Translations under genes and position numbers: made by a program
Shown: one piece after another, positions 16,569 to 55,645 of the stretch
How positions within the stretch are numbered: position 1 is the first letter of the stretch
Layout: the number at the start of each line of letters is the position of its first letter
Virus record (IMG/VR): IMGVR_UViG_3300037503_000005
Span: 1-55,645 of that record
Length of the DNA: 55,645 nt
From: a virus
Direction: 5' to 3' (one strand)
The notes under the pieces: model-generated
Database searches by the model: none
What the model was told of the DNA's origin: nothing
The model's input: the letters and a program-made list of their open reading frames with translations, nothing else

Positions 16569-16644
16569 TGGTCGCGGGGGCTGGATTCGCACCAGCGTTC
16601 TTCGGGTTATGAGCCCGACGAGATGACTACTTCTCCACCCCGCT
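16569..16644 (-). tRNA. tRNA with CAT anticodon, initiator (fMet)-like
   Basis: 76 nt including an encoded CCA. The anticodon arm TCGGG-CTCATAA-CCCGA has the three consecutive G-C pairs typical of initiator tRNA, and acceptor position 1 is A opposite G72, a mismatch as in bacterial initiators. The T-arm GCTGG-TGCGAAT-CCAGC is complete. The D-loop lacks the usual GG, which is odd. A phage-encoded initiator tRNA could support phage translation. Confidence 0.85.
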
Positions 16645-18973: not shown

Positions 18974-19141
18974 CTAGACCGCCTGCTGTTGTATTTGCTT
19001 GGCCTGATCTTCTAACGCGATGCGGAGCATGACGGACAATCTTCGGTTTTCAGCCTTTGCGGCCTTTACATAAAACTTTCTGAGGTCTTCAGGGACTCTC
19101 ACGACTAACTGCTCGGTCAGGTTGTTCTTGGAATTTTTCAT
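18974..19141 (-). CDS. Ribbon-helix-helix regulator (Cro position)
   Basis: 55 residues from ATG at 19141 (GGGGGA seven bases upstream). The beta strand TEQLVVRVPEDLR followed by FYVKAAKAENRR and LSVMLRIALEDQ is an Arc/CopG-type RHH DNA-binding domain, which binds operators as a dimer of dimers. It is the first gene of the leftward early operon, directly opposite the repressor gene, the place held by Cro in lambda. It probably binds the same GCATTGC operators. Confidence 0.8.
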   Translation of the reverse strand: MKNSKNNLTEQLVVRVPEDLRKFYVKAAKAENRRLSVMLRIALEDQAKQIQQQAV

Positions 19142-19164
19142 CGGCAATTCCCCCAATGAGCGGG

Positions 19165-19193
19165 ACTATAGCACGCCTCGCATTGCATTGCAA
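19165..19193 (-). promoter_or_regulatory. Leftward early promoter
   Basis: Reading left: TTGCAA (19193-19188), 17-base spacer, TATAGT (19170-19165), about 24 bases before the RHH start. The -35 box and part of the spacer are inside the repeated operator sequence, so binding there would block RNA polymerase. Confidence 0.75.
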
Positions 19194-19245: not shown

Positions 19246-19863
19246 ATGGCAGAGTTGACATCACAAGTCACTTTTAGGGTTTCCGACAAGATGTATCAGC
19301 GCATCGGAGAGATCGCTAAAGAAGAACGCAGAAAGCCCAACGAAGTAGCGCGGGCGCTTCTTGAGCGTGGGGAAGCGGCCTATACTTCCGACGGGCGTTT
19401 GTTTGAGCCAGGAGCGGGAGAGTCGCAACCGCGCGCCGTCGCGCTGAAGATTGTCGGGCGGGTTTCTGGCGGCAAGCCTATAGAACCGATAGAGCACCAC
19501 GAAGAAATTATGGTTTTGAGTACCGACATCGCTGGCATCAAAAAAGCCCGCGCCCTACGTGTCGTAGGCGATAGCATGCGCGACGCGAATGTAATGGACG
19601 GAGATATAATCTTAGTTGGAGATTGTGAGTCACCTATCAATAAGATTGTGGTTGCCTACATCGAAGAGAAAGGCACTTTAGGAGCTACGCTGAAATGGTG
19701 GAGACAAAAAGGCCAGAGCGTGACGCTGGAACCGGCCAACCCTGACTATAAGCCTTTCACCTATCCGGCAAAGAAACTTCGCTGGTACGGCGCTCTCGCG
19801 GGAGTTATCAGGACTATACCTCTCTCTGAAGTCGCCGGAAGGTCTGAAGCCGATGCCGCGTAA
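19246..19863 (+). CDS. RHH-S24 (LexA-like) phage repressor
   Basis: 205 residues. The N-terminus (about 1-45: TSQVTFRVSDKMYQRIGEIA, NEVARALLERG) looks like a ribbon-helix-helix domain and not the usual HTH. The C-terminus is an S24 peptidase: self-cleavage stretch GRVSGGKPIEP (Ser-Gly bond), nucleophile Ser in RVVGDSMRDANVMDGD and general-base Lys in TLGATLKWW. It should repress the early operons and self-cleave upon RecA activation. ATG at 19246 is preferred over an upstream TTG. It overlaps the PAS gene by 11 bases. Confidence 0.88.
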   Translation: MAELTSQVTFRVSDKMYQRIGEIAKEERRKPNEVARALLERGEAAYTSDGRLFEPGAGESQPRAVALKIVGRVSGGKPIEPIEHHEEIMVLSTDIAGIKKARALRVVGDSMRDANVMDGDIILVGDCESPINKIVVAYIEEKGTLGATLKWWRQKGQSVTLEPANPDYKPFTYPAKKLRWYGALAGVIRTIPLSEVAGRSEADAA

Positions 19864-20263
19864 TTGCTCATGGTGCGGTAAGCAGACGGAGCGAAAGTTG
19901 TGCGAGGGTTGTCTAATATTTGCGGCCAGCGTTCCTTCGCTTTCTCAAGACGTATTAGATGATCTTCCCTTTGGGGTAATTGAGCTAGACGAAGCGGGAA
20001 AGGTTCTCGGCTTTAATCACCATGAAGAGGAGCGGTCGCACCTGCGCGCATCTGAAGTTATAGGGAAGAATTTCTTCCGCGACATTGCGCCGTGCGCGGA
20101 GGTAAAAGAGTATCAAGGTAGATTTGAAGAGTTCCTGTTAAGTGATGAGCCTTCTATTCAATTTGATTTTGTTTATAGGTTGCCCCACGCGACGATCCCC
20201 ATACGGATAATGTTTGTCCGCGCCCACGGACACAACGTATTGGTAGTAAGTAGAGAAGTTTAG
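19853..20263 (+). CDS. Photoactive-yellow-protein-like PAS sensor with N-terminal zinc ribbon
   Basis: 136 residues. CSWC and CEGC (residues 5-20) form a zinc site. Residues about 38-136 align without gaps to photoactive yellow protein at an offset of 12: VIGKNFFRDIAPC has Cys81 at the chromophore-bearing Cys69 position, Glu58 at Glu46, Phe54 at Tyr42, Ser62 at Thr50 and Leu64 at Arg52. PYP binds p-coumaric acid and senses blue light. Some chromophore-free PAS proteins share the GKNFFxDIAPC signature, so light sensing is unproven. It starts inside the repressor gene and is surely co-expressed with it. Confidence 0.8.
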   Translation: MPRNCSWCGKQTERKLCEGCLIFAASVPSLSQDVLDDLPFGVIELDEAGKVLGFNHHEEERSHLRASEVIGKNFFRDIAPCAEVKEYQGRFEEFLLSDEPSIQFDFVYRLPHATIPIRIMFVRAHGHNVLVVSREV

Positions 20264-20603: not shown

Positions 20604-20632
20604 TTGCATTGCATTGCATTCTATGGTAACAT
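20604..20632 (+). promoter_or_regulatory. Rightward early promoter with right operator copy
   Basis: TTGCAT (20604-20609), 17-base spacer, TAACAT (20627-20632). The -35 and spacer coincide with TTGCATTGCATTGCATT (20604-20620), the second copy of the operator found at 19180-19194. It would drive the small-gene operon beginning at 20712. Confidence 0.72.
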
Positions 20633-20711: not shown

Positions 20712-21128
20712 ATGCAAAACGCAGCCACAGCATTCGCCGCCGCTTCTGAAAACACACCACGGGTCAACAGACGTCGCAACCAACGTGCAGGCAACTGCGA
20801 TAAGTGCCGAGCCTTTGTTGAGCCGCAGGCTGGCTATCTGTTCAAGATGAGGGGCTGCAACGCAACCGGTGGGGATTACTACCAGCGCGTGCGCGGTGAG
20901 TGGCATGTGCGCTGTGAAGCCTGCACGCTCAAGACCCCATCCGTCAGGCGTGAGATGGGACTAACAGGCGAGCAGCCCAAGCAGTTCAAACAGGCAAGAG
21001 AGCGTCGTCAGGCGAAGCGGGCAGCTATTGAAGCCCTGATTGCAGAGTACAGCGACGGAACAGGCTGTGTGCCTGCTGAACGCATGGAAGCCTATCGTGA
21101 AGATTTGGCGAAGCTCAGAAATAAATGA
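20712..21128 (+). CDS. Zinc-binding hypothetical protein, first gene of rightward operon
   Basis: 138 residues. CDKC (about residue 29) and CEAC (about 70) with a Gly-rich loop between suggest a treble-clef zinc site. The C-terminal half is a charged helix. AGGGGG lies nine bases before the ATG. A 28-codon frame from 20662 in the leader might be a leader peptide. The first gene of an early operon often encodes a host-takeover factor; no family is recognised. Confidence 0.65.
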   Translation: MQNAATAFAAASENTPRVNRRRNQRAGNCDKCRAFVEPQAGYLFKMRGCNATGGDYYQRVRGEWHVRCEACTLKTPSVRREMGLTGEQPKQFKQARERRQAKRAAIEALIAEYSDGTGCVPAERMEAYREDLAKLRNK

Positions 21129-23491: not shown

Positions 23492-24114
23492 TGATAGCAA
23501 TGCTGGATACAAGCCATGATCTTAAAGTCTGCTCTGAGGAACTGGGCTGCGCGGTCGAGCAACTTCTGACGCCTCTAACAAGGTTCAACATGCAAGACCC
23601 CTTGGGCTGGCGTGCCATAGAAAATGGTGGCTTTACCGGACTCAATATCAAATCATTCCTATCGCTTTTAGAGCGCGAGGCGCATGCCAAACAGCTTGTT
23701 AGATTTGTCTCCGTGCCAGACATCCTAGCTTCAGCACGACGCACCCTTGAACTGTTCGATCATTGGTATCCGCAATTATGCCAGTGGCCGTTAGCTCTGG
23801 TCGCTCAAGATGGTCAGGAGGATTTACCCATCCCTTGGGATTTAATCACGGCAATCTTTATCGGCGGCACTACCAGATTCAAGATGAGCAAGGCCGCCAC
23901 GGACATTATCCGAACAGCTCAGGCGATGGGCAAATGGACTCACGTAGGGCGCGTGAATGATCCCGCAAGGTGGCAGCATTTCTTAAACTTAAACGTGGAT
24001 TCTGTGGACGGTACGGGAATCTCTAAATATTCACACATGAGAATTGCTATCCGTGATCGTGAAATTAAACCATCCCTGTTCGATGAGATTGAAGAGGAAG
24101 CTTTATGCGTGTAG
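23491..24114 (+). CDS. DpdA-like (TGT-family) DNA base transglycosylase
   Basis: 207 residues. Signature blocks of the short phage TGT-like family: AIENGGFTGL, FVSVPDILASARRTLELF, PLALVAQDGQED, PWDLITAIFIGGTTRFKMS, GKWTHVGRVNDPARW and NVDSVDGT. Members of this superfamily exchange guanine for 7-deazaguanines in tRNA or DNA, the DNA type masking phage genomes from restriction. No preQ0 synthesis genes are visible here, so the base would come from the host. The substrate is an inference. Confidence 0.68.
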   Translation: MIAMLDTSHDLKVCSEELGCAVEQLLTPLTRFNMQDPLGWRAIENGGFTGLNIKSFLSLLEREAHAKQLVRFVSVPDILASARRTLELFDHWYPQLCQWPLALVAQDGQEDLPIPWDLITAIFIGGTTRFKMSKAATDIIRTAQAMGKWTHVGRVNDPARWQHFLNLNVDSVDGTGISKYSHMRIAIRDREIKPSLFDEIEEEALCV

Positions 24115-24353
24115 TCCATAGCTTACAAATTACAAGTATCTGTCCGGTTGATGAGAAGCCTGACGTTTATGAGTGCTTCGTCATAGCCAAGCGGGTGATT
24201 CCGGTTGAGGATATTTTGAAGGCCACAGCCGACGTTAAGAACATGAAGGCGTATCAGGAAGATATTTGTCAGGAACTGCACCGGAGGCTCGCCTGCGAGG
24301 TTCGTCTAGTCGGCTACCACCAAGGAGTCCGTACCGAAGTGGTCTGCGGGTGA
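24105..24353 (+). CDS. Small protein coupled to the transglycosylase, T-fold-like pattern
   Basis: 82 residues overlapping the transglycosylase by ten bases. The sequence SICPVDEKPDVYECFV, then QEDICQELHRRL and GYHQGVRTEVVC resembles small phage proteins with a pterin/QueF-like tunnel fold in general pattern only. Its coupling suggests a partner in base modification. Low certainty on fold. Confidence 0.5.
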   Translation: MRVVHSLQITSICPVDEKPDVYECFVIAKRVIPVEDILKATADVKNMKAYQEDICQELHRRLACEVRLVGYHQGVRTEVVCG

Positions 24354-55113: not shown

Positions 55114-55645
55114 CTACTTAATTGATTTAATGGTAAACGGCGGCCTGATATTAACGTCGAATTCTGCCGATGCTTCTAATGCTGCCCTGACCATCTTTTC
55201 AGGCGTTGTGGTTCTGAGCGCATGCATAGCCCCCAGAGCTATTTGATCGGCGCAACCTATAGCCGCATACGGCGGGAGCGACATAGCCACGCCATAAGCG
55301 CTGTCAACCTGGAACAATCGCCCCTGATACCCAACAAGACACATGCCGTTTATCGTCTTACCCTCATTTTCGTCGTCAACTTCACAGCCGCCATCCTGCA
55401 TGGCTTTTCTTAGTGCCCTTGCAAACTTAACGACCATGTACTTTTCCACATCAAGGCGCGGGTCATGCTTTGGTAATTTAAGTTCATAGCAAACAATCTG
55501 ACACACGCGCTTTGAGCCGCTAACGCCGATAAGAAAATCACCCGCCTCAAAAACCTTTGGAGTTGCGCCTAACCGCAACGAGCCATCTTCTTGGGTAAAC
55601 GCAGCATCACCACCCATGAAGATTTGACCGCTCTTTGATATTGCG
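55114..55645 (-). CDS. Proteasome/HslV-like Ntn hydrolase, candidate prohead protease (main part)
   Basis: With the 5' part at 1-144 this is a 182-residue protein, the length of HslV. After Met removal Thr1 is the nucleophile; Asp18 (MGGDAA) and Lys35 (TPKVF) match the Thr-Asp-Lys set of proteasome beta/HslV. FLIGVSGS matches the HslV VIAGFAGG strand, and AAIGCADQIALGAMHAL the IGSGGxYAxAAARAL helix. It lies between portal and scaffold, where phages keep the prohead protease, and no other protease is seen in the head region. No ATPase partner gene is visible. Confidence 0.82.
   Translation of the reverse strand, partial: AISKSGQIFMGGDAAFTQEDGSLRLGATPKVFEAGDFLIGVSGSKRVCQIVCYELKLPKHDPRLDVEKYMVVKFARALRKAMQDGGCEVDDENEGKTINGMCLVGYQGRLFQVDSAYGVAMSLPPYAAIGCADQIALGAMHALRTTTPEKMVRAALEASAEFDVNIRPPFTIKSIK
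55519..55645. repeat. Circular-genome overlap, right copy
   Basis: Identical to bases 1-127. When counting genes or bases one copy should be removed. Confidence 0.93.

Follow-up and report, generated by a model that had tools for sequence, protein, structure and literature searches.

A four-cysteine homologue of photoactive yellow protein recurs behind predicted immunity regulators in phages

We describe a phage-encoded protein, here termed Zn-PYP, that, judged by alignment and predicted fold, is a homologue of photoactive yellow protein (PYP) and more than a PAS look-alike, and that belongs to a four-cysteine subgroup absent from the descriptions in the family papers of Xing 2022 and Dohmen 2025. 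Its gene was found in a 55,645-base virus record (IMGVR_UViG_3300037503_000005), the whole of which we refer to as the window. Five more phage contigs carry a Zn-PYP gene, and in all six it lies directly behind a predicted immunity regulator, in the same orientation. This recurring linkage supports the view of Zn-PYP as a signal-gated partner of phage immunity.

Results

Virus record and gene layout

The window encodes terminase, primase/helicase, a replication initiator, ParA partition, tail and head proteins. A scan of roughly 20 large ORFs recognised no integrase, which makes a plasmid-like prophage plausible. An exact 127-base repeat at the ends of the record (positions 1-127 = 55519-55645) makes the contig probably circular; the same 127 bases are also found in the contigs of two relatives, L110 and L111, which suggests the word size of an assembler. 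All three contigs are likely circular assemblies, and the classes given to their ends in IMG/VR may differ. A tRNA-Met gene (16569-16644, minus strand) separates the replication genes from the immunity region. The major head protein, searched for host assignment, had no match in 396 Acidobacteriota genomes, an empty answer that is uninformative on the host.

Table 1 Features of the immunity region of the window
Feature	Position	Strand	Evidence
Small Arc/RHH-like gene in the cro position, divergent from the repressor	18974..19156	-	Weak Arc-like PHROG matches
Operator-like direct repeat GCATTGCATTGCA, in the gap separating the divergent genes	19180..19192		
Predicted phage repressor, RHH-like N-terminus and Peptidase_S24/LexA-type C-terminus	19246..19863	+	Pfam, LexA model, PHROGs
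Zn-PYP, 136 aa: N-terminal four-Cys module and PYP-type PAS domain (~27-136)	19853..20263	+	
Gene 3 of the operon, encoding a short zinc-ribbon-like protein of 73 aa	20285..20506	+	Profile matches below cut-offs
Second copy of the 13-mer GCATTGCATTGCA, upstream of the rightward operon starting at 20712	20606..20618		

The Zn-PYP ORF has an ATG start preceded by GGAAGG and begins inside the repressor gene, as a sequence-only reading of this DNA had stated; the overlap is exactly 11 bases. That reading had labelled the upstream gene an RHH-S24 repressor. The S24 part of the label stands (Pfam PF00717, 60.7 bits), and the LexA model scored 74.7 bits, below its cut-off. The RHH part is weak, with an Arc-like PHROGs match at E 0.11 and a structure prediction from three sequences (pLDDT 49) in which a strand-helix-helix N-terminus appears at low confidence. 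Residues S110 and K150 are conserved and align with the catalytic Ser and Lys positions. At the scissile position the window has Gly-Gly (SGGKP, residues 74-78) and the phages L109 and L008 have Ala-Gly; with a Gly-Gly site despite an intact Ser/Lys dyad, self-cleavage of the window repressor may be slow or altered.

Membership in the PYP family

A phmmer search against the PDB aligned residues 29-119 of Zn-PYP to PYP without gaps (1otd, E 1.8e-15), in line with the gap-free PAS alignment reported earlier, and all matches above noise were PYP or engineered PYP derivatives. Compared with Halorhodospira halophila PYP, 29 of 87 ungapped positions were identical, a number that 20,000 shufflings of Zn-PYP never approached more closely than 20. 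Comparison of a predicted structure with PYP, which the sequence-only reading had proposed, returned the PYP fold: the model (pLDDT 86.6, with known PYPs in the input alignment) found PYP as its best Foldseek match in the PDB (E 2.3e-12), the best 39 matches were all PYP before any other PAS protein appeared, and the VIA Z score was 17.9 to PYP vs 12.7 to the first non-PYP structure. The NCBIfam equivalog TIGR02373 scored 76.9 bits (E 1.4e-21) and its cut-off of 143 bits was not reached; this model recovers about 20% of accepted PYPs (Xing 2022, PMC9664959).

Two other accounts of the resemblance were rejected. Chance is incompatible with the phmmer E-value, the fold matches and the shuffling. 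A generic phage PAS domain was likewise dismissed, given that a viral fold library yielded only generic PAS proteins of low identity, at E 5e-6 or weaker vs 2e-12 for PYP.

The N-terminal module and the chromophore pocket

The four N-terminal cysteines noticed in the first reading lie at positions 5, 8, 17 and 20 (CSWC...CEGC) and are invariant in all six phage copies as well as in a ten-row alignment with chromosomal relatives; the module probably binds zinc. It occupies the place of the usual PYP N-terminal cap. In H. halophila PYP, this cap loosens in the signalling state.

With an offset of 12 from H. halophila PYP to Zn-PYP, the pocket residues map as Tyr42=Phe54, Glu46=Glu58, Thr50=Ser62, Arg52=Leu64, Cys69=Cys81 and Phe96=Tyr108. 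The mapping agrees with the earlier claims of a retained chromophore Cys and Glu46 and of changes from Tyr42 to Phe and from Thr50 to Ser, and it adds two further changes, Phe96 to Tyr and Arg52 to Leu. The equivalents of Cys69 and Glu46 are present in every phage copy. Tyr42 is never kept, being replaced by Phe in five copies and by Val in one; residue 50 is Ser in five of the six, including every copy with Phe42. Arg52 is lost in five, and the equivalents of Met100 and Trp119 are not kept. Altogether, 15 of 17 family-conserved residues are found in the window protein (14-16 across the phage copies). Residue 96 is Tyr in all six, where chromosomal four-Cys relatives combine Tyr42 with Phe96; the pocket tyrosine thus seems, by alignment, to have moved to the opposite side in the phage proteins.

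In the family survey of Xing 2022, Cys69 for the thioester-bound chromophore serves as family criterion, and the chromophore of Y42F PYP forms its hydrogen bond with residue 50 instead (PMC9664959). Phe42 occurs in about 9% of natural, accepted family members (PMC12826048), so Tyr42 is not an exclusive criterion. Neither a p-coumarate ligase nor an ammonia lyase was recognised among those of the window ORFs that were scanned; the one unassigned ORF near the size of such enzymes, 344-1918, had no Pfam match. Most pyp operons have no chromophore genes, which occur in 5% and 32% of them (PMC12826048).

Phage relatives and their regulators

Used as a single query, the window protein retrieved no relatives from viral contigs, PHROGs or GenBank phages; these were reached only by alignment queries against 2.9 million viral contigs. 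These retrieved five more IMG/VR phage contigs (L008, L108, L109, L110 and L111); two further viral scans added no Zn-PYP contig, and tblastn with the window, L108, L110 and H. halophila PYP queries found no PYP in 50,697 GenBank phage records. The six Zn-PYPs are 29-58% identical to one another. Since the contigs, some of them related, were all retrieved via the PYP gene, its presence is given; its place beside a regulator is not.

The regulators themselves are of several kinds: RHH-S24 proteins in the window (gap to the PYP gene -11) and L109 (-4), an XRE-S24 protein in L008 (-20), an XRE-like/HTH-like protein without S24 in L108 (+9), an XRE protein with an ImmA-type M78 protease in L110 (+25) and a small Arc-like RHH protein in L111 (-4). 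The L108 regulator, itself without a significant match in Pfam or PHROGs, aligns with that of L008 (Z 15). The start/stop overlaps suggest coupled translation of regulator and PYP. All 15 PYP pairs align strongly, whereas 10 of the 15 regulator pairs are unalignable. Thus, L108 and L109 have the nearest kin among the PYPs (58% identity) next to unrelated, unalignable regulators, and L008 and L110 have kept the cro-like gene (64%) and the PYP gene (58%) around a regulator that is mostly different. The window shares three to seven ORFs with each of the other phages, and PYP is the only gene common to all; downstream of it, every phage has different genes, encoding zinc ribbon, secreted or membrane proteins. 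An 82-aa ORF of the window (24105-24353) is 79% identical to its L109 counterpart, far above any other shared gene.

In five phages, all except L109, the unit lies between operator-like repeats. Those of the window, L008, L108 and L110 lie upstream of the regulator and again ahead of the next rightward operon, and L111 has a further copy of an operator-like palindrome immediately downstream of its PYP gene. Repeat lengths are 21 bases in L008, 17 in L108 and 13 in the window, where the copy next to the repressor overlaps a promoter-like sequence on the minus strand (19193-19165). Recurrence of the window 13-mer alone is not significant (probability about 0.1), and it is the repeats at corresponding places in the other phages that make the case for operators. 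Between cro-like gene and repressor, L008 (5111-5153) and L110 (4894-4940) have the same promoter backbone with different palindromes, TGCAACTAGGTTGCA and ACTTAACTAGGTTAAGT, respectively, a difference that may represent a natural swap of operator specificity.

Chromosomal relatives

A PYP-like match was detected in 21 of 396 Acidobacteriota genomes, about 15 of these matches being nearly full length and including the four-Cys part. Twelve such proteins (L096-L107) share the two-module architecture, are 35-40% identical to the window protein and keep Tyr42, Glu46 and Cys69. No S24 repressor stood beside any of the twelve; the neighbourhoods are housekeeping-like, most of the genes having a malic-enzyme region on one side and a SirB1-like gene on the other. 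The search for the same gene pair in phages and host chromosomes, suggested by the sequence-only reading, thus gave a divided answer, with linkage to regulators throughout the phages, contrary to the unlinked scatter that would have spoken against that reading, and with the chromosomal homologues examined unlinked. As a weak background, no regulator family appeared among the 25 listed of 28 families for the neighbours of chromosomal PYPs (39 upstream ORFs, many probably non-genes); regulators are found near some clade A PYPs (Xing 2022, PMC9664959). A Thermoanaerobaculia MAG (L009:1408-3404) has three consecutive PYP-like genes, with an EAL-domain gene between the first and second.

In a maximum-likelihood tree, the six phage proteins formed one clade with the twelve chromosomal four-Cys proteins (support 100/98), apart from all sampled canonical PYPs and from the Burkholderiales-type clade; clade B of Xing 2022 was not deliberately included in this sampling. 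Within the four-Cys clade, the phage proteins grouped together with support 77/85. The Acidobacteriota four-Cys clade is unmentioned in the PYP surveys of Xing 2022 and Dohmen 2025.

Discussion

Zn-PYP resembles the PYP family in fold, ungapped alignment, Cys69 and Glu46. It differs in its four-Cys N-terminus instead of the N-cap, in its Phe/Val42, Tyr96 and mostly lost Arg52, in its phage-encoded location behind repressors, in its own branch of the tree and in its score below the TIGR02373 cut-off; the chromosomal four-Cys forms, in contrast, keep Tyr42 and Phe96 and have no adjacent repressor.

We regard it as an even bet that Zn-PYP is a signal-gated modulator of the lysis-lysogeny switch. 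The protein would be co-expressed with the repressor in the lysogen and receive a signal at Cys81, either blue light via bound p-coumaroyl or a hydroxycinnamoyl or acyl thioester itself. This signal would loosen the Cys module or N-cap, the module in place of the cap forming a natural output surface, and the loosened cap would alter the efficacy of the adjacent regulator, of the Cro-like protein opposing it or of the promoter complex; in the simplest form, Zn-PYP would act as an antirepressor. Given that the gene persists when the regulator is exchanged, the protein probably makes contact with a surface common to these regulators or with a shared element of the switch. By the same token, regulators with S24, coupled to M78 or with neither alternate while PYP stays, which makes S24-domain-specific action unlikely and argues against a mechanism through S24 self-cleavage. 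The earlier idea of a PYP-like partner of the repressor is supported in part: the protein is of the PYP family, lies in the repressor operon and recurs beside regulators in all six phages.

A partner general enough for unrelated regulators is less easily pictured than a cargo gene behind a repressor, and the position behind the repressor is a classic cargo site, as with lambda rexAB. As lysogeny cargo, the gene would owe its transcription to the repressor promoter, which is active in lysogens, and its product would serve the host or exclude other phages and play no part in prophage regulation. The varied regulator families, the cargo-like differences among the genes that follow and the chromosomal Zn-PYPs without adjacent repressor all fit this explanation, which we nevertheless consider rather unlikely: PYP stays beside the regulator while downstream genes turn over, the overlapping start and stop codons point to coupled translation, and the L111 palindrome right after PYP leaves PYP as the main companion of the regulator. 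That a captured host gene is decaying or hitchhiking at random without function seems very improbable. Some chromophore-site residues are changed and the sample is small, yet frames are intact in six divergent phages at the same location, the four Cys, Glu46 and Cys69 are invariant and most family-conserved residues are kept.

Signal-gated modulation itself leaves a choice of inputs. Light is a tentative candidate, favoured by the retention of Glu46, Ser50 and Cys69; the loss of Tyr42 counts against it, as does the failure to recognise chromophore genes. Alternatively, and with a chance we place somewhat short of even, Cys81 would receive an acyl group from hydroxycinnamoyl-CoA or some other acyl thioester, or the cysteines and zinc would respond to redox, and the phage would read plant phenolics or thiol stress in the same regulatory role. 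This alternative concerns the input only and overlaps the main explanation, so that our estimates do not add up to one. It is consistent with the invariant Cys69 equivalent, the altered polar pocket, the lack of chromophore genes recognised in the phage and the transition from light to redox sensing proposed for other PYP homologues (PMC9664959). However, an acyl or redox sensor would have no need of the photocycle proton donor Glu46, kept in all six copies, or of Ser50, and both Phe42 and operons without chromophore genes are familiar from natural PYPs (PMC12826048). The fullest version of the light hypothesis, a modular four-Cys PYP re-paired with several unrelated repressor systems and coupling lysogeny to blue light, strikes us as unlikely.

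VqmA of phage VP882, BluF-BluR and LdaP-PpsR provide a mechanistic precedent for each proposed step. VqmA of VP882 and its relatives is, like Zn-PYP, a PAS-domain sensor on a temperate phage, in this case a plasmid phage; it is a quorum-sensing receptor that controls lysis through Qtip. VqmA is itself a DNA-binding transcription factor that reads DPO, whereas Zn-PYP has no recognised DNA-binding domain and sits in a repressor operon. In BluF-BluR of Escherichia coli and LdaP-PpsR of Dinoroseobacter, a photoreceptor directly antagonises a repressor, and bluR and bluF are neighbours; these are, unlike Zn-PYP, cellular flavin (BLUF, LOV) photoreceptors paired with other repressor families. L110 resembles the ImmR-ImmA switch of XRE repressor and M78 protease, with the order XRE, M78, Zn-PYP; we know of no ImmR-ImmA system with a PYP-like third member.

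The PYP family papers PMC9664959 and PMC12826048 make no mention of phage, zinc or repressor, and the listed partners in pyp operons are c-di-GMP enzymes, kinases and ligases (PMC12826048). Consistent with the initial remark that no such case had been described, we found neither a phage-encoded PYP nor a light-gated phage repressor in the open-access literature. The arrangement of repressor and PYP is a new variation on environmental sensing by phages.

PYP is a textbook photoreceptor whose interaction partners are mostly unknown. Six phages sharing little else keep Zn-PYP beside whichever repressor is in use, and in so small a genetic system the output of PYP and the decisions of the phage can be tested together. 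If light is sensed, Zn-PYP would add a further kind of cue to the DNA damage and quorum signals that phages respond to, and would provide a light-gated repressor module of natural origin. Should it instead read phenolics or serve the host, the tie between a new PYP clade and phage immunity would still be noteworthy. The phages that carry it may thus query a sensor of the light type, or one for small molecules, before leaving dormancy.
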